Of a stretch of DNA of 64,000 nt, positions 10,352 through 43,614 are shown one piece after another. The stretch lies in assembly GCF_029109325.1 (NCBI RefSeq), contig NZ_JAQKQJ010000008.1, forward strand, positions 1 to 64,000. The letters run 5' to 3'. The first letter of the stretch is position 1, and every line of letters begins with the position of its first letter. A program made the position numbers and the translations under genes. The notes under the pieces were generated by a model. It was not told where the DNA came from. It saw nothing but the letters and a program-made list of their open reading frames with translations, and did no database searches. The DNA comes from Nodosilinea sp. PGN35 (lineage in GTDB: Bacteria > Cyanobacteriota > Cyanobacteriia > Phormidesmidales > Phormidesmidaceae).

Positions 10352-10558
10352 GAAGTTTTGAGTTTTATAGCCGTAGTCACATCGGTTAGGACGTCAAGTA
10401 ACCTTGAAAACGTTCAAACGTTTGAACGTTCATAGGGAAGCTGTCTCAACCAACCTGGCCATAGCTATAAGTTTTGAGTTTTGAGTTTTGAGTTTTGAAT
10501 TGAATCCTTGACCGGGAGAACTTAAACCTAAGAACTTAAACCTAAGAACTCAAAACTT
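10352..10558. repeat. AGTTTTGAG array interrupted by a palindromic element
   Basis: AGTTTTGAG units occur at 10352-10367 and again at 10468-10558, with the complementary tail GAACTCAAAACT at its end. The 100-bp AACGTT element (10368-10467) sits between them. Removing the element and one TA restores GAGTTTTAAGTTTTGAG, exactly a motif present in the array at 7206-7222. Confidence 0.85.
10366..10469. mobile_element. AACGTT palindromic element, copy A (with TA flanks)
   Basis: The ends TATAGCCGTAG and CCATAGCTATA are inverted repeats, and the centre is the palindromic AACGTTCAAACGTTTGAACG. The element proper is 10368-10467, flanked by TA on both sides (10366-10367, 10468-10469). It interrupts an AGTTTTGAG array, which is the best insertion evidence in the window. 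A TA duplication is typical of Tc1/mariner-IS630 type elements, so a MITE is inferred. Confidence 0.8.
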
Positions 10559-10563
10559 GCCCA

Positions 10564-13500
10564 TCACTCTTCGCCGGTCTTAAAGGTGCCGACGGTGGCC
10601 TGGAGCGATCGCGCCACACCGACCGTCTCGCGCAGGGAGGTGGAAATGTCGAGGGACGACTGGGAGGTGCGGGTGGATTCGGCGGCGATCGCCTGCATGA
10701 GCTGGGTCACGGTCTCGGAGATTTCCACCTGGGAGACGGTGGCATCGGAGATGGAGCGCACCAGGGTGTCAATCTGCTGCGACACATCGAGAATGCGGCC
10801 CAGGTTGAGCTTGGCGTCTTCCACCAGGCGGGTGCCGGCGACCACCTCGGTGGTGCTTTGATCCATGGCGTCTACCACCTCGGCGGTTTCGCGCTGGATG
10901 GTTTCGACGATGCGCTCGATTTCTTTGGTGGCTTCGGCGGAGCGGGCGGCCAGTTCGCCCACCTCTTCGGCCACCACCGCAAAGCCCTGGCCCTCTTCCC
11001 CGGCGCGGGCGGCTTCGATACCGGCGTTGATGGCCAGCAGGTTGGTCTGCATGGCGATCTGGTTGATCAGCGAGACGGCCTTAGAGATTTGCTGAGAGGA
11101 TTCGCCCAGCCGCTTCACTTTTTTGGAGGTCTCGCCGATGATTTCCCGCAGGGTGAGGATGTTTTGCACCGTCAAATCCATCGCCTGGCCGCTGGTTTCG
11201 GCGGTGGTAGAGGCGTTGTTAGCGACCACAGCGGCCTGCTGGGCGCTGCGGGCCACCTGCTGAATCGAGGCGGTCATGGTCTCCACGGAGGCCAGGGTTT
11301 GGGTGACATCGTTGGCCTGGCGCAGGGCCTCGGTGGCCAGGGCCTGAATCGCCCCTTCGTTTTCGCCCAGGGAGGCGTTGACCTGCCCGGCAGCGGTTTT
11401 CACCTGGGTGACGATCTGCCGCAGGCTTTCTACGATCGAGTTGAAGAAGTCGGCGACGGTGCCGATCTCTCCGGCGGTGACATCGGCGCGCACGGTGAGG
11501 TCGCCACGGGAGGCCCCTTCCACCTCGCTGAGCAGCTCGACCAGCTGCATTTGCAGGGCCTCTTGCTTTTGGCGGCGCTCTTCAGAGAGGGCCTCGGCCT
11601 GGGCGTAGAGGCGCGACTGCTCCAGGGCAAAGCCCAGCTGAGTGGCCACCTGGCGAAAGAAGTTGACCTCCATGGCATCCCACTGACGGGGGCCGCTGCA
11701 CTGGTGGGCAATCAGCAGCGCCACCAGCTCTTCGTTGATGATGATGGGGGCGACCAGGTTGGCCTTGACGCTGTACTGCTCGAGCTGGCGCAGGTGGCAC
11801 TCGGTCAGTCCGGCTTCGGCCAGGTTGGCCACCGCCTGCACCCGGCCCTGGCGATACTGTTCGATATATTTTTCTTTGAAGCAGGGGTCGTAGACCTTGT
11901 CTTCGAGGGCGGCGGGCCAGCCCGGCTCGACCGACTCAGCGACAAAGGTGCCCTTCCAGGTGTCGTCGAACTGGTACACACTGACGCGATCGGTTTGCAG
12001 CGCCCGGCGGATTTCGGTAACGGCGGCGCGGAAGATGCGGTCCTGGTCGAGGCTTTCGCGCATGCGGGAGACGATTTCGGTGATCTGACGCTCGCGGGTG
12101 GCGGAGAGCTGCTGCTGCTGCAAGAGGCGGGCCTGGCTGAGGGCGTAGCCAATCTGCACCGAGACCTGCTGGAGTAGATCGATTTCTTCGGCGCTCCAGT
12201 CGCGGGGGCGATCGCACTGGTGCACGCACAGCAGACCAATCAGCTCGTCACCGGCCAGCAGGGGAGCCACCATGTTGGCCCTCACCTCTAGCTTTTCCAA
12301 GATCTCGCAGTGGCAGTGGGAAAGTTCGGCTGCGCTGCGGTCGGTGATGGTGCTGACCCGCCCGGCATGGTAGCGCTCTAGGGCTTCTGGGGTGAGGGGG
12401 TCAGCAATGGTCTGGCCCAGGGCTCGCTTCCAGCCGCGCCCCACGGCCTCCGCCGTAATGTGGCCACCTTTGAAGTCGGGATGAAAATGGTAAATCAGCA
12501 CCCGGTCAACCTCCAGCACATCGCGCAGCCCTTCAACCGACGTGCTGAGAATGGTCTGCTCGTTGAGCGACTGGCGAATGCGACCCGTCAGGTCGGCCAG
12601 CAGCCGTGCCCGAGCGGTGGCCAGCTGCTCCTGCTGGCTCTGGCGGTGCAGCAGATCTTCGGAACCGGCAACGTTTTCGGCCAGCTGGTTAAAGGCCTGG
12701 GCTACCTGGCCCACTTCGTCGGTGGCAAAGACCTCGGCGCGGGCCTGGCGATCGCCCATGCCAAAGCGCCAGGTGGCCTGCTGGAGGTTTTTCAGCGGAC
12801 GCATGATGGAGCGCCCCAGCAGGGCGGCAATGCCCACGTCGGCGACCAGAGCAAGCAGGGCAAGCAGCATTTGCAGGCGCAGGCTGTTGCCAATCAGGGT
12901 ATTGAGCGCCGCTTCGGAGGTGCCGCGCACCATCACCGCGACCGGCTGGCCGTTGAAATCCTCGATGGCGCGGGCGGCCAGGGTGTAGGTGGTGCCGTCG
13001 ATGCGATCGCGGCGAGTCACCTCCTGGTCGGGTCGGGCCACCGCCTGCTCGATCAGGGTAGAGGAGTCGAGGGGCACGTTGGCCGCCGCCGCGTCTAGCT
13101 CGGGGTTATCCCCCGCGTAGAGGCCCGTGGCCAGCTCAAAGGTGCCGTCGTCGCCCCGCTGGTAGAGGGCGCTGTAGCCGTTGCCAAAGGGGGCGATCGC
13201 CCCGCGAGGAATGGCATTTTTGCCGTTGACAATGTCGCCGGAGACCAGCGCCCCTACCACCGCCCCCGTCGCCGGGTCGCTCACCGGGGTGACGGTGTAG
13301 CGCACCAGGGCATCCTGGTTGGCAAAGCCCGCCGGCAGGGGCGGGGCCTCATTGCTCAGCTCGGCCCAGCTGACAATGGCGCTGGCTTTGATCTGGCGGG
13401 GGTTTTGCAGCACCGTGCCCACCAGGCCGTTGGGGTCAAACTGCTGACCCCGGCGATCGCGGTTGGCATTGGCAATAATTCTCAGATCGTTGCCCACCAG

Positions 13501-14043
13501 GGTGGCGTACTCAATGTTGCGGGCCTCAATTTCGTTCTCTAGAATTTGCTGCACTGCGGCGATCGACCCGGCGGGTATGGTTTCGCCCCGCGCGTAGGCC
13601 GCCGCCGCATCGACAATGGCGCGGTTGTCTGACTGACCGCGAAAGCCAAAGCCCATCTGGTTGATCTTGATGTTGTACTCAATGTCGGTGACCGCCAGCT
13701 CGGCCTTGGCCTGGTTGAGCAGCTGACTGCGGCCACCGGCCACAATCAAGAACGACCCCACCCCCACCAGGCCCAGCACCGAAATTACCTCCGAGGTAAA
13801 CAGGCCAGCCAGCTGCTTTTGCCGCACGCTCAGGTTGCTGAACCACTGCACGGGGCCAAACTGCGATCGCTGGGTGATGGTCACGGCGCTGCGATTGTTG
13901 GAGCCGTAGGTTACCCCACGATATTTCAGCTCTGGGGCGCTGTTTGCCGTCGCATTGGGGCCGCTGGCGGCTCCATTAGATGGCGCTAAATCCTCGATTT
14001 CAGCGCTATCTAATGGGGAATAGGGGCGAAAATCAGTGGTCAT
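10564..14043 (-). CDS. pixJ: Phototaxis receptor with tandem cyanobacteriochrome-type GAF domains (PixJ)
   Basis: The 1159-residue receptor has a membrane segment at about 79-103, an extracytoplasmic region, a second membrane segment (about 388-410), HAMP (410-465), two GAF domains (about 480-640 and 655-815), a HAMP-like region (830-885) and a methyl-accepting hairpin. GAF2 carries Asp719-Pro-Cys721-Phe722 and Cys749-His750, the two-cysteine signature of DXCF cyanobacteriochromes such as PixJ of Synechocystis and Thermosynechococcus, usually blue/green switching. GAF1 keeps Cys577-His578 but has Asp-Pro-Leu in place of the DXCF cysteine. It should bind bilin through GAF2 and perhaps also GAF1, and control CheA by light. 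A weak AAGG lies before the ATG. Confidence 0.92.
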
Positions 14044-14135
14044 GGGTCAACTACCTTGTAATGAGCTGGACGAAAGGGTCTGAATTGGGTGTAGCCATAG
14101 GCCCAGGGGGACGGGCACGATGTTTAGGATGCTGG

Positions 14136-14252
14136 ACAGCTGTAGCCAGGCCGGTTGAGACGTTTGCTAAAGGAACTTTCAAACGTTTGAACGTTCTGGG
14201 GTGAACGTTTTGGGGACTTTGGGGTGTTCTAACCAGCGTGACTACGGCTGTA
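14136..14252. mobile_element. AACGTT palindromic element, copy B
   Basis: It begins ACAGCTGTAGCCAGGCCGG and ends GTGACTACGGCTGTA, with the core TTTCAAACGTTTGAACGTTC. It lies in the pixJ leader between pixJ and the CheW gene. It is about 15 bases longer than other copies because of extra sequence in the right arm. Confidence 0.75.
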
Positions 14253-14318
14253 AACCGCTGATGGCAGGGAGAGTAGGTAGCCCTGGCCAGGGGCGCTAGC
14301 GCCCTGGGGTAAACGACT

Positions 14319-14837
14319 CTAAAGCGCTTGCAGCGCCGGGGCGCGCAACAGGGCTTCGCCGTCGAGCCCCAGCAGCACTTCTCCCTCTTGCAGGATGCAG
14401 CCCCGCAAAAAGGGCACCAGCCCTGGCGGCACGTGGGTGGGGGCGGGCTGCAAGTGCTGGGGCGACAGACTGAGAATGCCGTCGATGTGGCTCACCCGCA
14501 GCCCCAGGGCCACGGTGCCCACCTGCATGAGCACCAGGTTGTACTGCTGGGAGTTGGGGTAGGCGGTGGGCAATCCCAGCAGCAGGGCTAAATCGACCAC
14601 CCACAGCACCCGGCTGCGGCGGTTGATTAACCCCAGCAGGGCCGGGGGCATGTTGGGCATGGGGGTAATGCGGGCGGCGGGGGTGGCGATCGCCTCCTGT
14701 ACCTGGCGGGTGGGCAGCAGGGCCGCCTGGCTGCCCAAGGTAAAACGTAGGTAGCTATGGGTCAGCGGCGTCAGGGCCTGGGTGGCCAGGGCACCGTTGG
14801 CCGAGGGGTAGGGCTGCGCTAGAGACAGGTTGCTCAT
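14319..14837 (-). CDS. pixI: CheW-like coupling protein (PixI-like)
   Basis: The 172-residue product starts at MSNLSLAQ; its ATG (14837-14835) overlaps the TGA of the upstream CheY gene (14836-14834) as ATGA, so translational coupling decides this start over a longer frame. The CheW domain spans about residues 20-165, with LLGLINRRSRVLWVVDLA and VPPGLVPFLRGCI as recognisable segments. It should connect PixJ to the PixL-like CheA. Gene order PATAN-REC, CheY, CheW, receptor is that of pixGHIJ. Confidence 0.9.
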   Translation of the reverse strand: MSNLSLAQPYPSANGALATQALTPLTHSYLRFTLGSQAALLPTRQVQEAIATPAARITPMPNMPPALLGLINRRSRVLWVVDLALLLGLPTAYPNSQQYNLVLMQVGTVALGLRVSHIDGILSLSPQHLQPAPTHVPPGLVPFLRGCILQEGEVLLGLDGEALLRAPALQAL

Positions 14838-15220
14838 CGGTTCACCTTCATCACGGCGAGCACCGACTGCACGAGCTGTTCGCGGGTGTAGGGCTTGGTC
14901 AGGTAGGCATCGGCCCCCTGGCGCATGCCCCACAGCCGGTCAATATCCTGGTTTTTGGAGGTGCAGAGCACGATGGGCACGTGGGCGGTGGCGGGCTGCT
15001 TTTTCAGGCTGCGGCACAGCTCAAAGCCGCTCATGCCGGGCATTACCACATCGCTGACGATCACATCCGGGGGGTGCTGGGCGGCCTTTTCCAGCGCATC
15101 CTGGGCGGTTGTGGCACAGACCACGGTACAGCCGCTGTCGCGCAGGTAGTGCACCATCAGCTCCATTTCGGAAGGGGTATCTTCAACTACCAAAATGGTG
15201 CCTGCTAGAGTCGCTTGCAT
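14834..15220 (-). CDS. pixH: CheY-like response regulator (PixH-like)
   Basis: A single receiver domain of 128 residues with Glu13-Asp14, phosphoacceptor Asp57 in VIVSDVVMPGMSG and the conserved Lys in LTKPYTREQ. AGGTG lies about nine bases upstream of the ATG. Its stop overlaps the next CheW start. By position it is the PixH-type regulator that accepts phosphate from the CheA at 7304. It is clearly paralogous to the CheY at 4987. Confidence 0.92.
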   Translation of the reverse strand: MQATLAGTILVVEDTPSEMELMVHYLRDSGCTVVCATTAQDALEKAAQHPPDVIVSDVVMPGMSGFELCRSLKKQPATAHVPIVLCTSKNQDIDRLWGMRQGADAYLTKPYTREQLVQSVLAVMKVNR

Positions 15221-15449
15221 AGTTGTTTCACCTAGATTTAGTAAGTGGATTGCCGCCGCAGCGGTGGGCAGCGGAGCCGCATTGAGCAGCTTTGGTAGCT
15301 GCGGCTCGATCGCTCCAAAGGCAACTTAATTTAGGAATAAAAGCCAGACCATAGCTTGCCGTAGATTTAAGAGCATGGACTCTAAAAGAGTTCTCCCTAA
15401 ACCACAACCTGCGCTCTGTCGATAGACTCTTAAAATCCTAAAAATTTAG

Positions 15450-15591
15450 CTAGTAGACTGCCAAGCTAAAGATGACGGGTCAGTGGGGTATACGGTTCAA
15501 GGTTTCAGGTTCAAGGCGAGCCGAAGACCGTATACCTTGCACCCTGCACGAACGGCTGGCCCCTGTCAAAATCAGCTTGGTCAAGTGCTAG
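15450..15591. mobile_element. CTAG-ended MITE-like element, copy 1
   Basis: The 142-bp unit has imperfect terminal inverted repeats (CTAGTAGACTGCCAAGCT against the complement of AGCTTGGTCAAGTGCTAG) and an inner inverted pair GGTATACGG/CCGTATACC. An almost identical copy lies at 17693-17837. The right-hand CTAG contains the TAG stop of the PATAN regulator gene (15588-15590). Confidence 0.85.
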
Positions 15592-16631
15592 TTCAAATAC
15601 TTAAAAATGAACTTAAGCAGATCGGATTGATTAAATGGCTTCGTCAAATAGCCCGAGGCCCGCACCAGTTTGGCCTTGGCGCGATCGATAAATCCAGTAT
15701 TGCTGGTCACCATAATAATGGGGGTGGTCTTAAAATCTGGATGGCGACGCAGCAGCGAGCACAGCTCGTAGCCGTCGAGGCTGGGCATGGTGACATCGAG
15801 CAAAATTAGATCGGGCTTCGTGCGAATCACCTGCATCAGCGCTTTCACGGGGTCGTCGATCATAATGACCGAGAAGATTTTGTCGTCTAAAAAGCTGTTG
15901 ATCGCCTGGAGTACCGTCGGGCTGTCATCAATGCAGGCAATGGTGTAATGGGCCTTTGCGTCCGGCTTTAGGCTCCCCGTCTGCCCTCCCCTACCCCCCG
16001 CAACCACCGCAGGCCCCGCTTCGACAGGGGTGGTTGCTACCGTTGCCACCCCCAGCCGCTGGGGGCCACCGTTGACCTGGCTATAGCCAGTGCGGCGCTG
16101 CTTGAGCCGGGCGTAGCACTCTTCTACCGTGGTGCGCAGGTTGAGTTGGCAGTAGCGGGGGGCGTTGCCCAGGCTGTTGCCCTCGACCAGCTCATAGCTG
16201 CCCTGGCGCACCTCTAAAAAGGCTTCTAACACCTCTTTAGAGAGGGTTTCAACCAGCGTTGAGGCCTGATTGGGCTGCAAGTGCTGCTGCTCAACTAGCC
16301 AGCAGATCGCCTGGTAGTCGGCATCGGCGGCGGTGGCCTGCTGCTCAAACAGCAGCCGCACCTGTACCCGCACGGCGCTGACCAAAGACGGCACCTGCAC
16401 GCTCAGCCGCCGCAGATGGCTATCCAATCGCTCGAAGGCTCGCTCGACGGTCGAAACATAGCTGAGCTGCCCCTGGTCTAGGTGCAGGAGCCAGGTGTTG
16501 GTGGGGGTCATCACCTGGAGACAGCCGGTGGCCTGGCGACTACTCACCTGAGCCAGCAGGCTGAGGGGGTGCAGTGGGTTGGGGGAAGACGGTGATGCCA
16601 TGGGAACGGTATTCAAGAGCGATGGTTGCAT
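15588..16631 (-). CDS. pixG: PATAN-domain response regulator (PixG-like)
   Basis: The 347-residue protein has a PATAN region (about 15-185), a variable linker and a receiver (about 230-345). The receiver keeps CIDDSP, the Asp in LILLDVTMPSLDG and the Lys in LTKPFN. In-frame ATGs lie at 16631 and at 16601 (MASPSS); the longer form is listed but the start is uncertain. The stop codon TAG is part of the terminal CTAG of a MITE-like element, yet the C-terminus FIFKYLN looks natural for a receiver end. It is the first gene of the pix-like operon. Confidence 0.88.
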   Translation of the reverse strand: MQPSLLNTVPMASPSSPNPLHPLSLLAQVSSRQATGCLQVMTPTNTWLLHLDQGQLSYVSTVERAFERLDSHLRRLSVQVPSLVSAVRVQVRLLFEQQATAADADYQAICWLVEQQHLQPNQASTLVETLSKEVLEAFLEVRQGSYELVEGNSLGNAPRYCQLNLRTTVEECYARLKQRRTGYSQVNGGPQRLGVATVATTPVEAGPAVVAGGRGGQTGSLKPDAKAHYTIACIDDSPTVLQAINSFLDDKIFSVIMIDDPVKALMQVIRTKPDLILLDVTMPSLDGYELCSLLRRHPDFKTTPIIMVTSNTGFIDRAKAKLVRASGYLTKPFNQSDLLKFIFKYLN

Positions 16632-16751
16632 AGCGGTTCACTAGAGAATCAGGGAATGCACGGGGACGGGCAGATGGTTTTGGTCTCCAAACGGGCGCTG
16701 GGGTGGCGCTGCCACAACGCTGGAAACGTCTTTGGAAAAGACTGTTAGCAC

Positions 16752-16769
16752 CCGGGGCGATCGCCCCGG
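16752..16769. other. 18-bp perfect palindrome centred on a HIP1 octamer
   Basis: CCGGGGCGATCGCCCCGG is a complete palindrome upstream of pixG and contains the HIP1 sequence GCGATCGC. It could fold in the leader RNA or simply be an extended HIP1 site. Confidence 0.5.
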
Positions 16770-17286
16770 CAGCAAAACACAAGCTCGGCCAATGGCCTAG
16801 CCGGTCGGCAAACAGCAGTGGAGGAAAGACTGGTATCAACCCTGGGGTTCAACCCTATAGCGGTCCGGCCTGAATTGTAAAAATCCGCAGTTTGGGCGAG
16901 CCGTCTGCACGGGCAGAAGACCCGTCCCGCTGGGAATCAATTCGGATTGCTATCGTTAAACCATTTCAAAAAAGCTACGATTTTAGCAGCAAATTTTGAC
17001 GGGATAGATGCGGGATTGAGAAGGGTTAGGAGTTAATGACTCACGCCCGATTGGGGGGCTACACAGAGAGTTAAACTAAAAACCCAAATGCGTTGACAAA
17101 AATAGATTGGGCTTGAAAAGCGATCGATAGTCAGGAATGAAGCGCTAAACCGTTACCTTATGATTTGATGATAGCAGACTGAATAAGCAAAAATATAAAA
17201 AATAAGTGAACGATATAAAAATCGGCTTGTCCAACTATAAAGCGAAAATAAAGGTTCCATATTCAAACTCTGTTGAGCTTTATCTG
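16770..17286. other. Gene-free, relatively AT-rich stretch upstream of pixG
   Basis: No open frame with coding character is visible. The AT-rich part around 16960-17260 is the likely promoter region of the pix-like operon, but no specific box is assigned. Confidence 0.4.
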
Positions 17287-17321
17287 TTTGCAGAGATATT
17301 GCAGTGCCATATCTCTGCAAA
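17287..17321. terminator. 13-bp perfect hairpin
   Basis: TTTGCAGAGATAT pairs with ATATCTCTGCAAA around the loop TGCAGTGCC. A T-run (GGTTTTTTTTAGG) follows about 25 bases later on the + strand. It could be a terminator or a dispersed palindrome; its centre ATTGCAGTGC is close to that of the palindrome at 38678. Confidence 0.5.
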
Positions 17322-17359
17322 GTTCTGGTTTTGAGTTGCGGTTTTTTTTAGGACAGATT

Positions 17360-17545
17360 GAGCGTCATTCGTGAAGTGGTGAGACGCAGCGGGTGGGCCA
17401 ATCTGCATTGCTCACGAGATGACCGCACAGGTCGCCGTACCCTGGAGAGTGAACAGCCGAGACGGCTATCCCACAGGATTTTTCCATAGGCCCTTGTGGC
17501 CCAGGAGGTCAGCCGCCGATGGGATGGGCCTCTGACCCGTTCTAA
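17360..17545. other. Cluster of stem-loops, possible non-coding RNA
   Basis: Four short stems follow each other: GTGAG/CTCAC with inner GCAG/CTGC (17379-17415), GACC/GGTC (17421-17433), AGCCG/CGGCT (17455-17467) and GGTCAG/CTGACC (17507-17537). AGGCCC/GGGCCT (17488-17531) is an alternative pairing. No protein frame fits and no known RNA family was recognised. Strand and boundaries are unknown. Confidence 0.3.
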
Positions 17546-17561
17546 CTAAGTCCTGAGTAAA

Positions 17562-17696
17562 CTAGTGGTCAGTCAAGTTAAATGTGACGGGTTGACGGTC
17601 TACGGTAAACGGTACACGGCTCGCCTTAAACCGCTTACCGTGAACCGTGTACCCTAAGTCACACCGCCCGTCATTATTTTTTTGACTGAACACTAG
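17562..17696. mobile_element. CTAG-ended MITE-like element, divergent relative
   Basis: The ends CTAGTGGTCAGTCAA and the complement of TTGACTGAACACTAG form terminal inverted repeats, and TGACGGG follows on both sides. The interior holds GGTACACGG/CCGTGTACC. Read on the other strand, the interior resembles that of the 15450 and 17693 elements. It abuts the next element and shares its CTAG (17693-17696). Confidence 0.8.
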
Positions 17697-17837
17697 TAGC
17701 CTGCCAAGCTGAAGATGACGGGTCAGTGGGGTATACGGTTCAAGGTTTCAGGTTCAAGGCGAGCCGTAGACCGTATACCTTGCACCCTGCACCCAGAACG
17801 GCTGGCCCCTGTCAAAATCAGCTTGGTCAAGTCCTAG
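17693..17837. mobile_element. CTAG-ended MITE-like element, copy 2
   Basis: This 145-bp unit matches the element at 15450 almost base for base, differing mainly by a few substitutions and a three-base indel. The terminal inverted repeats pair CCAAGCTGA with TCAGCTTGG. It is placed directly after the divergent element at 17562. Confidence 0.87.
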
Positions 17838-18001
17838 GCTAAGAGTGTTCCAGCTAAATACCTATCCAGAGTTTTACGGCGACATGTCCAGCGAGCCGAG
17901 TTTGTGGCCTGAAAGGGGACATTTGTTTAGAAATGGTCGGCAGTGCCAACCCTACGGTGGTTGCAGTCGATAGAGCGGAGATCTTCTTTTCCAGCCATCT
18001 C

Positions 18002-20545: not shown

Positions 20546-20567
20546 TTTGGGGAGTGGGCGGGTGAGG

Positions 20568-20763
20568 GAGTTTTGAGTTCTTAGTTTTGAGTTCTTAGTT
20601 TTGAGTTTTGGGTTCTTAGTTTTGCCTTGAAGGTTCTTAGTTTTGAGTTTTAGGTTCTTAGTTTTGAGTTTTAGGTTCTTAGTTTTGAGTTTTAGGTTCT
20701 TAGTTTTGAGTTTTGGGTTCTGCTGGTCAGCAATTCAAAACTTAAAATTCAAAATTCAAAACT
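20568..20763. repeat. AGTTTTGAG/GTTCTTAG tandem array with complementary tail
   Basis: Alternating AGTTTTGAG and AGGTTCTT units fill the spacer between the bcsB stop (20775) and the bcsA start (20545). The end AATTCAAAACTTAAAATTC is complementary to the array, so a long imperfect hairpin can form. A short G-rich tract (20549-20568) separates it from the bcsA start. Confidence 0.85.
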
Positions 20764-20774
20764 CTTTCATGCGC

Positions 20775-23066: not shown

Positions 23067-23116
23067 GGGAGGGGTGGATGGGTAGGGGGGTGGGGGGATG
23101 GGGGAGGTGAGGGATA
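23067..23116. repeat. G-rich purine tract upstream of bcsB
   Basis: GGGGTGGATGGGTAGGGGGG-type sequence directly precedes the bcsB start on the + strand, followed by an AGTTTTGAG array. Confidence 0.6.
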
Positions 23117-23117
23117 A

Positions 23118-23205
23118 AAGTTTTGAGTTTTGAGTGCTTAGTTTTGAATGCTGGGTTTGGGTTCTGGGGTTTGGGCTGAACGGCAGAATCCAAACTTCAA
23201 AACTC
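23118..23205. repeat. Degenerate AGTTTTGAG array with complementary tail
   Basis: AGTTTTGAGTTTTGAG at 23119-23134 is complementary in part to CAAACTTCAAAACTC at 23191-23205. It lies between the GH8 stop (23213) and bcsB. Confidence 0.75.
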
Positions 23206-23212
23206 GACCTCC

Positions 23213-28557: not shown

Positions 28558-28662
28558 TATAGCTGTAGCTAGACTGGCTAAGACAGTTTCTCTAAAAACG
28601 TTTGAACGTTCAAACGTCCCTAGAGCTTTTGATTGTCCTACCCAGGCCACCATGGCGATATA
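28558..28662. mobile_element. AACGTT palindromic element, copy C
   Basis: The ends are TATAGCTGTAGCTAGACTGG and GGCCACCATGGCGATATA, and the core is AACGTTTGAACGTTCAAACG. It lies in the leader or promoter region of the cellulose operon. Confidence 0.8.
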
Positions 28663-31107: not shown

Positions 31108-31210
31108 TCTAGCTGTAGCCAGTCTAGTCAGGACAATCTTTCTAGAACGTTCCAACGTTTGAACGTTTCTAAGGGTGCTGAATGTCTTAACCCAATTGAC
31201 CATGGCTATA
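31108..31210. mobile_element. AACGTT palindromic element, copy D
   Basis: The ends are TCTAGCTGTAGCCAGTCTAG and CCAATTGACCATGGCTATA; the core GAACGTTCCAACGTTTGAAC is slightly imperfect. It lies in the gap between the 113-residue gene and the antiporter. The rest of that gap holds no gene. Confidence 0.82.
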
Positions 31211-33046: not shown

Positions 33047-33376
33047 AGAGGAGCAAGGGAGGGCGATGAAGTAGCGTCCGCTGGCGGCAGCGTCTACAAA
33101 GCCCCCTGCACCAGTGGACACAGGGGGCTTAAAGTCGGTAGAGATAGCCAGGGGCGTGGTGTTTCCCCAGCACAAGACCAGCTAACGAAAGCAGCAGGAG
33201 GCTCGTCTTCTATTGTCACCAATTCAGCGTAAGTACGCTATCAAAAGGTAAATTTTGGTGCGCGATCGCGGCATTGCCCGATCGCGGCACCCCGGTTTGC
33301 CGCTGTCAGAGCTTGGGGAGGCAGCAAAAGGGGCAATCCGGGCGTTTCTGCACTGGAAGTGATGTTGAAGCTGGGG

Positions 33377-34090: not shown

Positions 34091-34597
34091 GGTGGCAATG
34101 CTTGGGCCTGAGCTTCTAGTGTAATCCCTGGCCTGGGGATGTTGATATGACGGCTGCTTGCGGCTGATAGAGCCGTCCCAGCTGACCTGACCAACTCTCG
34201 CCCCTTGACGCCGTTTTCTGGTGCGGTTAGGATTCCTGTGTAGTGCAATTTTGCGCCCTCCCGTTTAATGTTGTCTTTGCAGCTACCCCTCGCCCCTCTC
34301 TTCAGCCTGCTACTAGGGCTGGGGCTGCTGCTGCGCCTTGGGCGCAACTAATTTTTTGAAATAAAGGCGAAACGCCCTGAATAGTTTCTCTCCCCAGGTC
34401 ACAGGTTGCCCCTAGGCCTGACCATCCTAGGGAGTCTGGGCGGCAGTCTGCGCTGCCGTAGGGTGCATGCGCCCGGCTTATGCCGCGCACCTCAGACCCC
34501 TTAGGGTGGGCACCGCCCACCATCCCCATCAGGCGACCCGTAGCCATCCCCCCACCCTTGCTACCCACAACTGCTACCTAAATTTGAGACATTTCCC
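34091..34597. other. Divergent intergenic region upstream of leuA
   Basis: No gene is seen. A hairpin GGTGGGC/GCCCACC (34505-34521) lies about 75 bases before the leuA start and could act as an attenuator or be incidental. Promoters for leuA and the Uma2 gene must lie here. Confidence 0.4.
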
Positions 34598-36301: not shown

Positions 36302-36330
36302 CCTCGATTCAAGCCTGCCAAGTCTTCCCT

Positions 36331-36354
36331 AGGGGCAAACTGTCGTTTGCCCCT
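36331..36354 (+). terminator. Hairpin terminator after leuA
   Basis: AGGGGCAAAC and GTTTGCCCCT pair perfectly around TGTC, 30 bases after the leuA stop. There is no U-run, as is common in cyanobacteria. Confidence 0.7.
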
Positions 36355-36465
36355 GCAATTCAGCAATTTCCAATAATCTTCTTGTGCCCTGGTGCGCGAT
36401 ACAAAACTATCTCGCTACGATTGTCTCAGCATGATTTATGGGTTCTGGCGCAGGTCAGCAGCGGG

Positions 36466-37020
36466 ATGAAGCAGTTTAGTCAGGTGATCGGCGGCCTGGT
36501 TGTGTTGGGGCTGGCAGCGGGCTGTACCCCAAACTTGCCACCGGGGGGCAGCGGTGCTACGGATGGGGCAGATATTCCTAACGGTGCGATCGCCCCCACC
36601 ATTGACGAGTTTGATTTTGATGAGATCGCCGGGCGCGGCTGCGGCATGTCTCTACGGCGGGCTGAGCGCAGCCCCCAAGACCGTCAGTACGTGCTGTTTA
36701 ACGGCCTGGTGCAGCACAGCCTCAGCGAGTTTGACGTGAGTATGGAAATGAAGATCGACGATCAGGTGGTCGTCTTTAGCCGTACCGACTATGAGGGTGA
36801 ACAATTTTCGGTCGAAAACTACCCCTGGCAGAGGTTTGTCAGTGAGGATGGCTCGCTGGTGGCCACCGTTGAGGTCGAGGCCCTACCCCCCACTGCACCG
36901 CCTGCTGGCGTGCCCAGCAGCGGCGAGTCAGCGGTGGTGATAATCTCTCGCGGCACGGTGACCGTTGAGCGGGATGGCCAGACCGACAGCGTCTCGGTGG
37001 TGGGCGACGCGGGGTGCTAG
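36466..37020 (+). CDS. Predicted lipoprotein, unknown function
   Basis: The start MKQFSQVIGG at 36466 is chosen because a lipoprotein signal (VVLGLAAGC) follows at once; the frame is open further upstream without signal character. The 184-residue product has a beta-rich core including RGCGMSLRRAE and VLFNGLVQHSLSEFDVSMEMK, reminiscent of small cyanobacterial lipoproteins of unknown role. Its stop shares CTAG (37017-37020) with the convergent GAF gene. Confidence 0.7.
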   Translation: MKQFSQVIGGLVVLGLAAGCTPNLPPGGSGATDGADIPNGAIAPTIDEFDFDEIAGRGCGMSLRRAERSPQDRQYVLFNGLVQHSLSEFDVSMEMKIDDQVVVFSRTDYEGEQFSVENYPWQRFVSEDGSLVATVEVEALPPTAPPAGVPSSGESAVVIISRGTVTVERDGQTDSVSVVGDAGC

Positions 37021-37607
37021 CCCCGATTGGCTTTGGGGTGGTGGGTTTGCCCATACTGTTGGGCTAAGGGTGTGAGCCCAGGGATAGCCTGCTCAATCAG
37101 GTGGCGATCGGCCTGGCTCCACTGGCGGGGAGCATCGAAGACACAGGCCTGCAAAATGCCCCACAGGGTTTGCCCTGAGCACAGATGGGCGTGAATTAAG
37201 GCCCGATGGCCAAAGGTGGCGCGCTCAAAGTCTCGGTTTAAAACCGTAGGGCTGGCGGTTTCCACATCTGCTACAAAAATGCTGGGCTGAGCCTTGAGCG
37301 CCGCCGCAAACATGGGGTCTTCGTCAGCCAGAGATGAGGGCTCGGGCTTCCACTCCGGGTCGTAGATCTGGGGAACCGATGGCCGCGATCGCCAGCAAAA
37401 CGGCACCCGCCCCAGCTGAGAATCGGGGCAGCGCAGGTAGAGAAAAACGCGATCGCACCGCAAGCGCTGACCCAGCGTAGCCAACAGCTCGTCCATTAGC
37501 CGCGCCCAGTTCTGGCTGTGGGGCGAGACATTAGACAGTTGGCCCATTAAAGCGTTCAGTCTGTCGGTTGCCATGGCGTTGGCAACTAAAGAATCGGAAT
37601 TAGCCAT
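37017..37607 (-). CDS. GAF-domain protein
   Basis: The 196-residue protein is essentially one GAF domain (about 28-185) with LRCDRVFLYLRCPDS and LCSGQTLWGILQACVFDAPRQW. Neither the DXCF nor the Cys-His chromophore motif is present, so bilin binding is unlikely. It may be a stand-alone sensor that partners another protein. It lies convergent to the lipoprotein gene and overlaps it by four bases. Confidence 0.8.
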   Translation of the reverse strand: MANSDSLVANAMATDRLNALMGQLSNVSPHSQNWARLMDELLATLGQRLRCDRVFLYLRCPDSQLGRVPFCWRSRPSVPQIYDPEWKPEPSSLADEDPMFAAALKAQPSIFVADVETASPTVLNRDFERATFGHRALIHAHLCSGQTLWGILQACVFDAPRQWSQADRHLIEQAIPGLTPLAQQYGQTHHPKANRG

Positions 37608-37758
37608 AGATATCCACAGTGGTTATGTCAGCACCTTAAAGCTATTGCCTGATTTTTTTCCCCTGCCGTAGTGAAGCTTTGAGCTCATCCTTGCGAGGGA
37701 AATACTGTGCCCAACAAAATACGTTTTACAGAAAAGATGATTTTTGCCCGCGCTCAGC

Positions 37759-37872
37759 TATAGCTGTAGCCAATCTGGTTAAGACAATTCCCCTAGGAAC
37801 GTTTGAACGTTCAAACGTTCCTAAGCGTTCCTAGAAGTGCTGAATGGCCTCACTCAATTGACCATGGCTATA
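37759..37872. mobile_element. AACGTT palindromic element, copy E
   Basis: The core AGGAACGTTTGAACGTTC continues symmetrically to CCT, a 28-bp perfect palindrome, with GCGTTCCTAG repeated once to its right. The ends are TATAGCTGTAGCCAATCTGG and CAATTGACCATGGCTATA. The gap 37608-38008 around it holds no gene. Confidence 0.87.
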
Positions 37873-38008
37873 TTTTCGCTTCTGGCCAAGATATGTCCTT
37901 TGAGCGATAAGCTTCTCAAAAGAGTTGCCTACCGTGTTCACTAGTGACTCAGCAGGCAGATTGCTTAGCTGAGGTTCGCAATTTGGACTGATTCTGAGGT
38001 AATTTGTA

Positions 38009-38371
38009 ATGAAGCATTTTTTGGGCACCCTGAAAGCCGTACTGAACCAGATTCGCTGGCGGCAGTTTGCCGTGGCTTGCTCTGCGGTTGTTGTTTTACT
38101 AACCGCTAGCGGCCTCAAAGCCGACCAAAGCTCTAGTGGGCGCACCTACGGCAACGAACTGCCCCCCACCCAGGAGGTCGGTCGCCCCCGCACCATGGGC
38201 CAGTGGGAAGCCGAGAACGAAGCCCTAGAAGGGCAACCCGGCAAAAAGCTACAGCGCATTGCTGAAGAATCAGCCGATGCAGTTAAAAATTGGGCTGAGA
38301 TCTACCCTCAAAATGCCAGAACTCTGACCCCTGGCGTAGATAATGGCGAGCTGCCTAACGACGATAAGTAG
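38009..38371 (+). CDS. Conserved hypothetical with one membrane or signal segment, 120 aa
   Basis: A hydrophobic segment at about residues 21-38 (FAVACSAVVVLLTASGLKA) is followed by a soluble tail rich in Gly, Pro and Glu, so the protein is exported or anchored. The motif GRTYGNELPPTQ and WEAENEALEGQPGKKLQRIAE are distinctive but not assigned. No neighbour forms an operon with it. Confidence 0.7.
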   Translation: MKHFLGTLKAVLNQIRWRQFAVACSAVVVLLTASGLKADQSSSGRTYGNELPPTQEVGRPRTMGQWEAENEALEGQPGKKLQRIAEESADAVKNWAEIYPQNARTLTPGVDNGELPNDDK

Positions 38372-38506
38372 TCTACGTTCTCGTCGTCCTGCTCAGGTTT
38401 AATGTTGGATTCTCAAGCCAGCGCGGCAAGCTGAAATAAAGGGCGCTTACTCAGGTGTCATCCCGGATCTTGCTTCGCCGCAGTTTCTTACGCACTATTC
38501 TGGATC

Positions 38507-38609
38507 TGTAGCGGTAGCCAGTCTAGTTAAGACATTTCCCTAGGAACGTTTAAACGTTTGAACGTTCCTAGAATGGCTGAAGCTCTTAACCCGGTTGACC
38601 ATGGCTATA
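38507..38609. mobile_element. AACGTT palindromic element, copy F
   Basis: The outer stem CTAGGAACGTTT continues through AAACGTTTGAACGTTCCTAG. The ends are TGTAGCGGTAGCCAGTCTAG and CCGGTTGACCATGGCTATA. It lies in the gene-free gap 38372-38778. Confidence 0.87.
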
Positions 38610-38677
38610 TGCAACCCCTTAAGGTTTTGAAAAGCTCAGAATCGGCATTGAGACAGCCCAATTTAAAGCAAGGTTTT

Positions 38678-38708
38678 TGTCGGGACATTGCACTGCAATG
38701 TCCCGACA
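38678..38708. other. 31-bp near-perfect palindrome (15-bp arms)
   Basis: TGTCGGGACATTGCA is followed by one C and then its exact complement. It lies between copy F and the TUDOR-like gene. The centre ATTGCACTGCAAT resembles the loop region of the hairpin at 17287. It could be a dispersed palindrome or a processing signal. Confidence 0.75.
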
Positions 38709-38778
38709 TCGCGGGTGCAAATCCACGAGGGCAGGTTTGGAATTTTCCCCTTTGAACAGCTAAAATTAACCAATCACC

Positions 38779-38991
38779 ATGACACAGACTTTTAAGCAGG
38801 GAGATAAAGTCTCCTGGAATACGGCCCAGGGCAAAACCGTTGGCAAGGTCGTGAAAAAACTGACCTCTCGCACAGAAATTAAAGGCCACACGGTTGCCGC
38901 TTCTAAGGACGATCCCCAGTATTTGGTGGAAAGCGAAAAGACCGGCAGCCAGGCCGCTCACAAACCCGACGCTCTCACCAAAGAAGATTAG
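38779..38991 (+). CDS. Small TUDOR-like (DUF2945) protein
   Basis: The 70-residue protein matches the small hypervirulence-associated TUDOR-like family: QGDKVSWNTAQGKTVGKVVKKLT followed by KGHTVAASKDDPQYLVESEKTG. This describes a single SH3-like barrel. The role of bacterial members is unknown. The stop TAG overlaps the convergent Uma2 pseudogene stop in TTAG (38988-38991). Confidence 0.8.
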   Translation: MTQTFKQGDKVSWNTAQGKTVGKVVKKLTSRTEIKGHTVAASKDDPQYLVESEKTGSQAAHKPDALTKED

Positions 38992-39579
38992 GCCGCCTGA
39001 CTAACCCACTGGCGGAACTGTCTGATCAGGCTGTTTTCGCCAGTGGTGGGTTGCAGGCGCAAAAACCGTTCGATAGCGCTGGCGGTGAGCGGTGGCAACG
39101 CCAGGCTGGTTGGGCTAACGGTGTAGCTTTCGTCCCGCAGCGTGTAGATAGTCAGATGTTCACCATCGAACCGCCAGAGTTCTGGAATGCCATAGGGCCG
39201 AGTAGATTGCCATGGGGTTGAGCGAGCTGCTGGTGATGTCAATCTCAACCGCCAGATCGGGAGGTGGACAGTGGGCTAGGTCAATCTGCGCGAGGCCCCG
39301 CACCTCGACCTCGTGTTGAATGTAGTAGCACTGGTCGGGTTCTAAACCCTTTGCCAGATCCTCGCGATCGCAGGTGCGCGACCCCATACTGCGAATTTCT
39401 AGCCCTAGTTCTTCGGTAGCAGCTTCAATCAACCGTCCCAGCAGCTTTTTGAAGGTCTCGTGGGGGTCGAGGGGTATCCGAATTTCGAGGCTACCGCGAT
39501 CGTAGGTGAGGCGAATTGCTGGTTCCTGCTCGAAGTCCTTGATCAGCGAGCGGTAGGTCTGCCAGCTAATGTTGTGCAA
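38988..39579 (-). pseudogene. Frameshifted Uma2-family (DUF820) gene
   Basis: Residues 1-128 (MHNISWQTYRSLIKDF through LNPMAIYSAL) and the second part (GIPELWRFDGEHLTIYTL onward) belong to one Uma2 protein but lie in different frames. The shift is at about 39191-39194, where the coding strand reads GCCCTATGGCATT; dropping one base restores ALGIPELWR. The normal family has this GIPE(L/F)WR motif uninterrupted. It is a recent one-base insertion or a sequencing error. It would otherwise encode about 195 residues, slightly longer than the core domain. Confidence 0.8.
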
Positions 39580-39757
39580 GACAACGCGATCGGGGCTTTG
39601 AATTCAGGGTGGCGGTCATAGCGACGCCTGGGTTGAGAGGTAGGAACTTGGGTAAATGCTGGGCAATGCCCTAAGCGGTTAGCTGCTTTTATTATAAATG
39701 CTCGATTCTCCCCCTTGACCGCAGGAGGCGGACTTAGCCCCATGGGACTGTACGCAA

Positions 39758-39823
39758 AGACCCCAGGATTCTGCTGCGAGCATGCTAAACTAATTGGCTG
39801 TTCACCGAAGAACCCTGGGGTCT
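39758..39823. terminator. Long-armed inverted repeat with terminator-like stem
   Basis: AGACCCCAGGATTCT pairs with AGAACCCTGGGGTCT at 14 of 15 positions around a 36-base loop. It lies downstream of ccmK4 and upstream of the Uma2 pseudogene. Confidence 0.5.
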
Positions 39824-39829
39824 GATCAG

Positions 39830-39847
39830 CGGGCGCTCTAGCGCCCG
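39830..39847 (-). terminator. Hairpin overlapping the ccmK4 stop
   Basis: CGGGCGC and GCGCCCG pair around TCTA; the TAG stop of ccmK4 (39840-39838) lies in the loop. It is a plausible end of the ccmK3-ccmK4 transcript, though no U-run follows. Confidence 0.55.
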
Positions 39848-40185
39848 GTGGAACCAGGCAGGATCGGCTGTTCGACGGCCTGGCGGTAGATTTCGGTTTC
39901 GTCGTTGAAGTCGATGGGCAGCACAGCGACCACGTTTTCGTGGGGGCGGGGGATGATCACCCAGGTTTCGAGAATGCCGCCGGGGGTCTTTTCGGCGGCT
40001 TCTACCCCTGCGGCCATGGCGGCTTTGACTTCGGAGACATCGCCACGAATGTTGATGGCGAAGCGGGCACTACCGGCGCGAATGTAGCCAATCAGCGTTA
40101 CGCGCCCCGCTTTTACCATCGCATCGGCAGCGGCGAGCACCGGGGGAAACCCTCTGGTTTCGAGCGACCCGACAGCCTGTGGCAT
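39838..40185 (-). CDS. ccmK4: Carboxysome shell protein CcmK4
   Basis: The 115-residue single BMC-domain protein starts MPQAVGSLETRGFPPVLAAADAM. KAGRVTLIGYIRAGSARFAINIRGDV and WVIIPRPHENVVAVLPIDF are diagnostic of CcmK4. It forms hexamers of the beta-carboxysome facet, whose pores pass metabolites. It lies downstream of ccmK3 in the same direction, the usual satellite locus away from the main ccm operon. The spacer carries half a palindromic element. Confidence 0.93.
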   Translation of the reverse strand: MPQAVGSLETRGFPPVLAAADAMVKAGRVTLIGYIRAGSARFAINIRGDVSEVKAAMAAGVEAAEKTPGGILETWVIIPRPHENVVAVLPIDFNDETEIYRQAVEQPILPGSTGR

Positions 40186-40295
40186 GGTTGTACTCCTGAG
40201 AAAGTTTCGTGGGTAAAAAAATCAACCTTCATTGTACGGGGCGGTGGTCGCGATCGCGCCGTGTCGATTTATTAAAGACTGTAGGGGGGGCGTAA

Positions 40296-40360
40296 TATAG
40301 CCACAGTCAGGTTGGCGGAAATCTAAGTAACCCCATGAACGTTAGAACGTTCCAACGTTA
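40296..40360. mobile_element. AACGTT palindromic element, truncated copy G
   Basis: The left end TATAGCCACAGTCAGGTTGG and the core GAACGTTAGAACGTTCCAAC are present, but the right arm is missing. The element ends at the ccmK3 stop codon: its terminal TTA (40358-40360) is the TAA stop of ccmK3. Confidence 0.75.
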
Positions 40361-40669
40361 TACCCGAAACGGTTCCGAGGCCGAGGTAAACCCAATGGGC
40401 AAGATGGCATCAATGTTGTCGGTGGGGTTGGGGATGATCACGTGGGTGGTGACTTCGGCCAGGTTGGGGCAGGCGTTGGCCGCCACCAGGCCCGCTTCCA
40501 TGGCCCGCTTGACCTCGGCCACCAGGCCGCGAATCACCACAAACTGCCGTCCGCTCTCGGAGCGATCTTGCACCGAGACGGTGACGTTGCCCGCTTTGAC
40601 CATGGCATCGGCGGCGGCCAGCACCGCCGGAAAGGTCTGGGTTTCAATGACGCCGACGGCAATGGCCAT
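40358..40669 (-). CDS. ccmK3: Carboxysome shell protein CcmK3
   Basis: The 103-residue BMC protein begins MAIAVGVIETQTFPAVLAAADAM and contains VVIRGLVAEVKRAM and HVIIPNPTDNIDAILPIGF, as in CcmK3 rather than CcmK1/2/4. Known CcmK3 proteins do not form hexamers alone but mix with CcmK4. It precedes ccmK4 on the same strand. Its length is normal although its stop codon belongs to a truncated palindromic element. Confidence 0.9.
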   Translation of the reverse strand: MAIAVGVIETQTFPAVLAAADAMVKAGNVTVSVQDRSESGRQFVVIRGLVAEVKRAMEAGLVAANACPNLAEVTTHVIIPNPTDNIDAILPIGFTSASEPFRV

Positions 40670-40715
40670 GGGGTGCTCCTCGGGTGTAGTTTAGTGAGTC
40701 CTGCCCAACATTAAA

Positions 40716-41303
40716 CTACACCTTGATGCCGCTGGGTTCTCCGGCGGTGGCGATGATGCGATCGCACCCCGACTCGGGCTTGGCCCAGTCGCAGTGGCAG
40801 TCCTTGGGGTCGCCCCAGCACAGGCTGAGATACAGCTCCTCCCGCGTGGCCGACAGCTCGGCCCATTCGCTGGCCGCCATGCGGTCTTCCACGGCAGCTA
40901 AGGTTGTCGGTTGAGGGTCATGCCCTGCCAGCCACAGCCGCAAACCCGTGACTGAAGCTCGCCAAAACTCGAGGATGGCGGGGCGAGCGGCCGCCAGGGC
41001 GGCCTTGTCGGCGGGAATGGCGATCAGCTGGGGGTGCAGCTCGGGCACGCGAATGCTGCGCTCCCGGAACCGGCAGGTGTGCCACACCAGGCCCGACACC
41101 CCGTGCTGGTGCTGGTAGTCGTGAATCTGAGCGCGAAAGTCTTGAATGGCAAATACTTTGCTGAGCTTGTCGGTGCCGATCGCCTTGGAGAGCACCGGGT
41201 TGTCGATGCGATCGGCGGAGGAGAGCACCACCCGCTCGCCCTTCCAAGTGGCGCGCAGTTCGCGATCGAGAAACTCCAGCAGCTGTTCGGTGGTGTAGCT
41301 CAT
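40716..41303 (-). CDS. Conserved hypothetical with Cys-rich C-terminus, 195 aa
   Basis: The 195-residue soluble protein is unrecognised. Its C-terminal part has the motif CWGDPKDCHCDWAKPESGC with four cysteines and one histidine, which could bind metal. It starts 43 bases after the nucleoside hydrolase stop and ends 46 bases before ccmK3, so it may be co-transcribed with the shell genes. A carboxysome role is only a guess from position. Confidence 0.75.
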   Translation of the reverse strand: MSYTTEQLLEFLDRELRATWKGERVVLSSADRIDNPVLSKAIGTDKLSKVFAIQDFRAQIHDYQHQHGVSGLVWHTCRFRERSIRVPELHPQLIAIPADKAALAAARPAILEFWRASVTGLRLWLAGHDPQPTTLAAVEDRMAASEWAELSATREELYLSLCWGDPKDCHCDWAKPESGCDRIIATAGEPSGIKV

Positions 41304-41346
41304 GGGGCTATCTTAGCAACCCTCCCCAGCAGAGTTTTGTGCCCGG

Positions 41347-42279
41347 CTATAGTTTCCCCAGCCGTTCTGTCAAAAGTGTGTAAAAACCTTCGGCATCGAC
41401 GGTTTCAATCACCCTAGCGTTGGCCGGAGCGGCGGCGGTGGGGTAGGCATTGGCCACCGTGCGCCCCAGGCAGAGCGACCCTTCGGTTTCCACCGCCAGG
41501 CGCATGGGGCGGCCGGTGAACAGGTCGGGGCGCAGCAGGTAGGCGATCACGCAGGGGTCGTGGAGGGGCGGAGCCGCGAGACCGTGGCGCTCCACGTCGA
41601 GCTGGCCGTAGTGGCGCAGCATGCCGGCGGCGGCCTGGCCCACGGGGGTGCCGAGGCTTTCTAAGGCCCTCAGCCGCTCGGGGGTGGTCACCACCTGGTG
41701 GGTGACATCCAGGCCGATCATGGTCAAAGGTAGCCCTGCCTCGACCACAACCTTGGCGGCATGGGGATCCACATAGATGTTGAACTCGGCGGCGGGGGTA
41801 ATGTTGCCGCCCCCCAGCGCTCCCCCCATCATCACCACCCGGTCGATGCCCTGGGCGATCTCGGGGCACTGAATCAGGGCGACCGCCAGATTGGTCAGCG
41901 GCCCAAGGGTCACCAGCGTAATCGGGGCCGAGGCGGTGGTGAGTTGCTCGATCAAAAACGCTACGGCGTGCTGGACGGGGAGCGGCAGGGTGGGTTCAGG
42001 CAACTCGGCCCCTTGCAGACCCGTCGCGCCGTGAATGTCTTCGGCGGTGATGAGCGATCGCAGCAGCGGCCTGGGGCACCCGGCATACACTGGCACCCCA
42101 CGCTGGGCCAGGTGGCAAATGCGGCGGGCGTTGGCCGTTGTCAACGCCAGGGGCACGTTGCCCGCCACGGTGGTAATACCCAGCAGATTGAACTCAGCAG
42201 GAGATGCCAGGGCCAGGAGGATGGCGATCGCATCGTCAACCCCAGGGTCGCAGTCAATAATCAGCGGTCGAGGCAGCAT
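41347..42279 (-). CDS. Inosine/uridine-preferring nucleoside hydrolase
   Basis: The 310-residue enzyme starts with the metal-binding motif DCDPGVDDA (about 9-17), followed by GITTVAGNV, VTLGPLTNLA and VVMMGGALGGGN. It cleaves ribonucleosides to base and ribose in purine/pyrimidine salvage. The length is typical of the family. It heads a tight minus-strand run that continues into the hypothetical and ccmK3-ccmK4 genes. Confidence 0.9.
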   Translation of the reverse strand: MLPRPLIIDCDPGVDDAIAILLALASPAEFNLLGITTVAGNVPLALTTANARRICHLAQRGVPVYAGCPRPLLRSLITAEDIHGATGLQGAELPEPTLPLPVQHAVAFLIEQLTTASAPITLVTLGPLTNLAVALIQCPEIAQGIDRVVMMGGALGGGNITPAAEFNIYVDPHAAKVVVEAGLPLTMIGLDVTHQVVTTPERLRALESLGTPVGQAAAGMLRHYGQLDVERHGLAAPPLHDPCVIAYLLRPDLFTGRPMRLAVETEGSLCLGRTVANAYPTAAAPANARVIETVDAEGFYTLLTERLGKL

Positions 42280-42388
42280 GGGTGGAATCTCAATCTCTGT
42301 AGGGGTGGCACAGCGTCGCCCGCCGAGGCCAGGGGTGCTGTCCTAAAATACGCTGTGTAGGTCTGCATAGATTCTCCGCTCACCCGCT

Positions 42389-42395
42389 AAGGAGG
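42389..42395 (+). promoter_or_regulatory. Strong ribosome site AAGGAGG deciding a TTG start
   Basis: AAGGAGG stands seven to eight bases before TTG at 42403. The next in-frame ATG would remove the signal peptide start. Confidence 0.8.
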
Positions 42396-42402
42396 TTGCC
42401 CC

Positions 42403-43380
42403 TTGTCTGCTGCGCTGCGTCTCACGACTCTCATGGTATCTGGACTCAGTCTGCTGCTGGTAGCAGGCTGCGCGGGCAGCTCCCTGGAACAGTCCCTGGA
42501 GGCCGATCCGCAACTGCAAGAGCGGCCCGTATTTACCGGCGAAGACCCCGAAGCCCCGTCCACGGCAGAGGTCGCCCCCGACCCAGCGGCGGCTCCGGAC
42601 TCCGCCGAGGCCAGCCCCCCCGAGCCTGATACCCCCCCTCGGGGGAGCACCACGGCCCGGCTCGCAGAGGTGCCCGAAGACCTGCGCCCCTACGTGCGCA
42701 ACTGGCTGGCCCTCGGCCTGGTCGAACCAGCCGCTGGCCAGGCTGCCGACGGCGGCGCTGCTGCCTCCGACTTCCAGCCCAATCAGCCCATTACCCGAGG
42801 CGAGTTTGCCCACTGGCTGCTCACCGCCAACAACGCGTTCTATCGAGACGTACCGGCCAAACGCATGCGCCCCGCCACCGCTGGTACCGCCCCAGCCTTT
42901 CAGGATGTGCCCGCCTCGCACCCCTACTTTGCCGCCATTCAGGGCCTGGCCGAGGCTGGCATCATCCCTAGCGCTAAAACCGGCAACGCCACCGCCGTTA
43001 CCTTTCGGCCCGATGCCCCCCTCACCCGCGAAACCCTGGTGCTGTGGAAGGTGCCCCTAGACCTGCGCGCCCCCCTACCCACCGCCAGTGCCGAGGCGGT
43101 GACCACCGCCTGGGGGTTTCAAGACACTGCCCAGGTAGAGCCCCTGGCCCTGCGGGCGGTGCTGGCCGACCACCAAAACGGCGATTTTGCCAATATTCGC
43201 CGGGCCTTTGGCTACACCACGCTATTTCAGCCCCAGAAAGGCGTCACCCAGGCCGAAGCTGCCGCTGCTCTGTGGCGTTTTGGCAACCAGACCGAGGGTA
43301 TTTCTGCCGAAGAGCTGTTGGGACGATCTGCCGGTCAATCAAGTTCCCCAGAATCGACCACCCCTGCAAACTCTCTTTAA
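42403..43380 (+). CDS. SLH-domain lipoprotein
   Basis: Translation likely starts at TTG 42403, given the strong ribosome site. The 325-residue protein has a lipoprotein signal ending LLLVAGCAGS, a Pro/Ala/Glu-rich linker, then S-layer homology repeats (FQPNQPITRGEFAHWLL, FQDVPASHPYFAAIQGLAEAGII, TFRPDAPLTRETLVLW). SLH proteins attach the cell envelope to peptidoglycan or secondary polymers. The C-terminal PQKGVTQAEAAAALWRFG looks like a third partial repeat. Confidence 0.85.
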   Translation: MSAALRLTTLMVSGLSLLLVAGCAGSSLEQSLEADPQLQERPVFTGEDPEAPSTAEVAPDPAAAPDSAEASPPEPDTPPRGSTTARLAEVPEDLRPYVRNWLALGLVEPAAGQAADGGAAASDFQPNQPITRGEFAHWLLTANNAFYRDVPAKRMRPATAGTAPAFQDVPASHPYFAAIQGLAEAGIIPSAKTGNATAVTFRPDAPLTRETLVLWKVPLDLRAPLPTASAEAVTTAWGFQDTAQVEPLALRAVLADHQNGDFANIRRAFGYTTLFQPQKGVTQAEAAAALWRFGNQTEGISAEELLGRSAGQSSSPESTTPANSL

Positions 43381-43510
43381 TTCCTCTAATTCCTCTAAAT
43401 TATTAGCCCGTCGCCCTAGGCCTCCCATCAACCCGTTCTTCCTCGGCTGCTACCCACCGTCGGAGCGCTGGGTTCGCTCTGCTTCGCCCGCCCTCCGCAG
43501 ATCCTGTAGT

Positions 43511-43614
43511 TATAGCTGTAGCCAGTCTGGTTAGGACAATTTCCCCAGGAACGCTCAAACGTTTGAACGTTCCTGGGGTTGCGGGATGTCTGAACCCGAT
43601 TGACTATGGCTACA
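43511..43614. mobile_element. AACGTT palindromic element, copy H
   Basis: The outer stem CCCCAGGAACG pairs perfectly with CGTTCCTGGGG, while copies E and F have CTAGG/CCTAG at that place: compensatory changes. The ends are TATAGCTGTAGCCAGTCTGG and GATTGACTATGGCTACA. Confidence 0.87.

Follow-up and report, generated by a model that had tools for sequence, protein, structure and literature searches.

The palindromic repeats dispersed through the genome of Nodosilinea sp. PGN35 (6.39 Mb, 25 contigs) are very probably an IS630-type MITE, most likely moved by the transposase of a larger transposon of related cyanobacteria. The element is a 100-bp TAGC...GCTA sequence with terminal inverted repeats and no coding capacity, which is flanked by a duplicated TA (about 104 bp with the flanks). 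Its copy number, the single TA at its empty sites and the IS630 transposase with matching ends that occurs in the genus are all as predicted for a MITE, and from these sequences we infer that the copies in the present genome would have been mobilised by an IS630 transposase. Such an element is of an ordinary kind, and the family itself seems undescribed; a literature search with the end sequences gave, among the matches listed, unrelated papers only. This reading accounts for a repeat that is conspicuous in Nodosilinea genomes, and ties it to its likely parent IS.

Copies in the window and in the genus

A preliminary description had reported eight copies of the repeat in the window, that is, the whole stretch of 64,000 nucleotides that was analysed (61% G+C). 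All eight were recovered by R1, a model derived from 49 copies of the genome and used solely for copy finding, with E-values from 2.3e-26 (copy 43511) to 2.5e-7 (copy 40296) (Table 1). The structure held in R1 is partial because the RNAalifold consensus fold recovered mainly the inner hairpin. Chance can practically be excluded for both the left end and the core: the 20-bp left end, with up to 3 mismatches, was matched five times in the window and never in 100 shuffles, and AACGTTYRAACGTT, from the AACGTT palindromic core said to be common to the copies, occurred 16 times, twice in each of the eight, where 0.02 matches were expected. Two entries had to be amended. The copy placed at 14136 is present but starts one base earlier and is longer than given, and the supposed half copy at 40296 is a near full-length, decayed one on the minus strand. 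Copy 10366 is inverted with respect to most others in the window, since R1 scored better on its minus strand. The copies, described earlier as intergenic, all lie between called genes or merely touch a gene end. No covariance model of Rfam 15 reached its gathering score in the window.

Table 1. Coordinates of the MITE copies in the window, of the parts of copy 43511, and loci of related elements
Feature	Position	Strand	Remarks
MITE copy, 104 bp including TA flanks	10366..10469	-	R1 E 3.6e-24 on - strand
MITE copy, 118 bp, enlarged core	14135..14252	+	R1 E 1.4e-12
MITE copy	28558..28660	+	R1 E 7.3e-23
MITE copy	31108..31210	+	R1 E 2.6e-24
MITE copy, 114 bp	37759..37872	+	R1 E 1.1e-21
MITE copy	38507..38609	+	R1 E 9.5e-23
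Decayed MITE copy	40296..40390	-	R1 model positions 1-104, E 2.5e-7
MITE copy, CCCCAGG/CCTGGGG core variant	43511..43614	+	R1 E 2.3e-26, top match in window
Left terminal repeat TATAGCTGTAGCCAGTCTGGTTAGGACA	43511..43538	+	26/28 bases equal to the IS630 end upstream of the transposase
Right terminal repeat	43587..43614	-	Corresponds to the other IS630 end
Palindromic AACGTT core, 8-bp units	43543..43578	.	Absent from the IS
Same-end MITEs with different hairpin cores, other cyanobacterial families	L283 (G227), L281 (G062), L291 (G157), L098, L099, L102

The many copies anticipated on a genome-wide search were found, with at least 150 full-length ones in the own genome (R1); the left end alone, with up to 2 mismatches, occurred at 195 places against 16 for a reversed-pattern control. 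Median pairwise identity among 49 copies was 76%, and the copies form subfamilies, the main groups of which are 91-92% alike to their own consensus. Distribution in the genus is patchy: at least 67 copies were counted in each of G010, G014 and G024, 56 in G008, 38 in G022 and 31 in G018, and few or none in most other congeners (R1, with stricter filters than for the own-genome count). Among named genomes, exact end matches are mainly in Nodosilinea (PCC 7104, LEGE 07298), besides single contigs that bear other labels. Nodosilinea nodulosa PCC 7104 holds seven identical copies at different places, which show that the family spread recently there and give mobility indirect support. Moreover, the intergenic place occupied by copy 37759 is empty in four congeners (L192, L194, L198, L200).

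Some single loci deserve mention. A contig labelled as an Ectothiorhodospiraceae MAG (L159, SLKC01000130.1) carries two Nodosilinea-type MITEs and is likely a mis-binned cyanobacterial contig. A 149-bp element (L018:2561-2709, C4:22560-22706) resembles a chimera of two MITE subfamilies. At L047:2311-2514 (C24:162310-162513), two copies stand head to tail with one TATA in common where they meet, which would fit insertion of one copy at the other's end.

Insertion at TA

The copies start with TATAGC and end with GCTATA, and beyond these sharp boundaries the flanking bases are mixed and unrelated. Congener sites could not serve for reading the target duplication at base level because their intergenic flanks have diverged; it was read from paralogous repeats instead. 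Four copies (L050, L062, L059 and window 10366) lie inside other repeats which exist elsewhere without the insertion. At L050, a copy of a dispersed repeat of about 125 bp that carries the MITE, the sequence is GACCGTATATAGC...GCTATACCTTG, as against GACCGTATACCTTG in the empty copies of that repeat. The other three behave in the same way at the junction; copy 10366 sits in a GTTTTGA tandem tract whose empty counterpart is the tract at window 7176-7246. In these cases the empty site is restored by taking out the 100-bp TAGC...GCTA element and one TA, and the TA flanks expected of a MITE were borne out by the single TA at all four empty counterparts. A 4-bp TATA duplication was ruled out at L050, where the site needs TA only. 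Duplication of a TA target is typical of the IS630/Tc1-mariner family.

The repeat of about 125 bp that is filled at L050 is a third dispersed repeat, found at window 15470-15592 and 17713-17837 and also in L013, L060, L247 and L259. GTTTTGA-type heptamer tracts lie between genes at window 10350-10500, 7176-7246, 20549-20610 and 23069-23149, and resemble the short tandem repeats of filamentous cyanobacteria.

Candidate parent element

The search for an IS with the same ends led to the same genus: of the DDE_3 proteins examined in ten congeners, a single group is bounded by the MITE ends. It belongs to an IS630-family IS of 961 bp (L108, L109, L125) in genomes G022 and G027, which has two ORFs, 128 and 204 aa long, that differ in frame. 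In L108, an A8 run lies where the two ORFs overlap, and the IS is presumably read by frameshift, like IS630 elements for which this is the rule. ORF matches were to NF033545 (5e-41), DDE_3 (2.1e-41) and HTH_Tnp_IS630 (2.4e-10). Upstream of the transposase, the IS end agrees with the left end of the MITE at 26 of 28 bases, and the opposite IS end agrees with the right one at 23-24 of 28, against 6-8 of 28 for the ends of unrelated IS630 elements (control, L111 row left out). Related IS copies with the same ends were found in G021 and G004, and a decayed remnant (L173) in PCC 7104.

A search of the own genome for an IS transposase of the matching clade gave no match, and no intact close relative of it was found in the copy-rich G010, G014 and G024. 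The one intact IS630 of the own genome (L049) was rejected as parent; its ends, ACTAGTGTTCAGTCAA, differ from those of the MITE. The other IS630 groups of PCC 7104 were likewise rejected as a source of active transposase, being without MITE ends except for the remnant L173. A parent element in the same genome is usual for a MITE and not required, and its absence from the own genome leaves MITE membership intact.

Two further observations concern IS630 elements in general. A second MITE-like repeat, of 137 bp, lies at window 17561-17697; its ends, ACTAGTGGTCAGTCAA / TTGACTGAACACTAGT, match those of L049, and similar elements occur in L253 and L016/L067. In G019, G021, G012 and G002, many contigs end in fragments of IS630-type transposases, which suggests that draft assemblies collapse multi-copy IS and count too few of them.

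We propose that an IS630 transposase would bind the shared terminal 28 bp or so, excise the MITE and insert it at a TA. The MITE itself may have arisen by the joining of the two ends of such an IS around a palindromic core unrelated to it; since the IS did not supply the core, a simple internal deletion of the IS fails to explain the origin. The copies of the present genome look orphaned because the transposase is absent there. Their core might evolve by gain and loss of 8-bp AACGTTYR units through slippage, for which length classes about 8 bp apart are expected; those observed are 96, 104 and 111-114. Core variants would be spread by a master copy, and survival mainly outside genes, oftener between convergent ones, would be consistent with the purging of harmful insertions.

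Core, fold and alternative explanations

The preliminary description held that the fold rather than the sequence of the repeat is kept. This stands in part: matched changes are in excess in the inner palindrome, but in the outer stem there are none beyond chance. Scored against each copy's own subfamily, the inner AACGTT palindrome had 19 paired changes of 16 types where coincidence would give about 2.5 (a rough estimate), together with 116 single changes and 71 broken cells. The outer stem had 6 paired changes, with about 3.3 expected by coincidence, 212 single changes and 135 broken cells. Pair-breaking single changes dominate in both parts alike. In a pooled test of 48 distinct copies, cells changed on both sides numbered 81 against 52.5 in shuffles; most of them come from three core pairs that separate subfamilies, and this pooled signal is largely one of inherited subfamily differences. 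Thus the arms of the inner palindrome change together at times, and the whole fold is not kept.

The simplest account of the matched changes would be that one arm templates the repair of the other. Selection might instead maintain them, if transposition required a DNA cruciform or if AACGTT were the binding site of a host protein, an explanation that competes with our account of core evolution only and not with MITE identity. We consider it unlikely. The 71 pair-breaking against 19 matched changes in the inner palindrome mean that selection on old copies is weak, and arm-templated repair accounts for the matched changes without selection. What speaks for selection is that near-perfect hairpins, though with other sequences, also form the cores of same-end MITEs in further cyanobacterial families. 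With the core ignored, the two-end pattern was found in 16 of 291 cyanobacterial genomes, from 7 of 130 genera, and its reversed control had 0 matches in the same 291 genomes. The core differs from group to group and is in most cases an unrelated, near-perfect hairpin, for instance ACATTTTTGTGGGGCGGC-GAA-GCCGCCCCACAAAAATGT in G227 (39 copies), and a hairpin of AAAACCCAA...GAGAGTTGCGGCGC / GCGCCGCAACTCTC...TTGGGTTTT in G157. The loop of the G227 element occurs in both orientations (GAA/TTC, GGA/TCC).

Judged by these sequences, cyanobacteria appear to hold several MITE families with common ends and different hairpin centres. One might go further and see in them a modular IS630 MITE system, in which one conserved pair of ends, TATAGCYRTRGYCA...TTAGGACA, encloses a near-perfect hairpin that differs between lineages and is exchanged in the course of time, the hairpin itself having a necessary function, be it in transposition (end pairing as a cruciform) or as an RNA structure that makes insertions harmless. 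To this proposal we give slightly less credence even than to selection on the core. The same ends with different cores are nevertheless a natural set for testing whether a palindromic core matters in MITE movement.

It is improbable that the copies are dispersed RNA elements (attenuator, 3'-end stabiliser or small RNA) with a selected fold and with mobility that is incidental. The folds are strong, with z from -1.8 to -6.7 for six copies (copy 43511: -51.7 kcal/mol, z -6.7), and the excess of matched changes in the inner palindrome and in the pooled test would agree with an RNA; yet the outer stem, which makes up most of the fold, shows the near-chance count of matched changes and the 135 broken pairs given above. 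The genomic context is similarly divided. Genome-wide, 127 of 136 copies are intergenic by our own codon-based gene calls, which are rough (coding about 80% of long stretches). Gaps between convergent genes hold 46 of these 127 copies against 22 of 127 in the background (p 0.001) and gaps between divergent genes 16 against 30 (p 0.03), a bias that is suggestive only, as the background gaps come from stretches partly chosen for holding copies. The preference for convergent genes would suit an RNA element, but between tandem genes the orientation is even (33 vs 32), the window has no Rfam match, and presence at the same place differs between congeners. A scan for intrinsic terminators found 19 against 16.2 in shuffles, which is no excess. 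Nothing here favours an RNA role over mobility.

Comparison with known systems

That the repeats are REP elements moved by a RAYT (Y1_Tnp, REP-associated tyrosine transposase) can practically be dismissed: the left end does contain the GTAG that marks one REP superfamily (PMC3733652), and the genome encodes seven Y1_Tnp proteins, but the five Y1_Tnp genes examined have no copy within 1.5 kb. The cyanobacterial REP elements GTAG-12, -15 and -16, which are linked to Y1 tyrosine transposases, are 20-40 bp long (PMC3733652). The present repeats are like them in being palindromic and dispersed, with GTAG near one end, and unlike them in their length of about 100 bp, their TA duplication and the 28-bp ends that they have in common with IS630.

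The IS630-type MITE that we favour has a counterpart in kind in Nezha, a cyanobacterial MITE (Zhou, Tran and Xu 2008, as cited in PMC10969869 and PMC3733652). The closest likeness is to the IS630/Tc1-mariner ISs and their MITEs, with which the repeats share TA duplication, common terminal inverted repeats, the non-coding state and many copies. Unlike such MITEs, they have a core, the 40-bp AACGTT palindrome, that is absent from the IS, and a parent transposase that is absent from their own genome.
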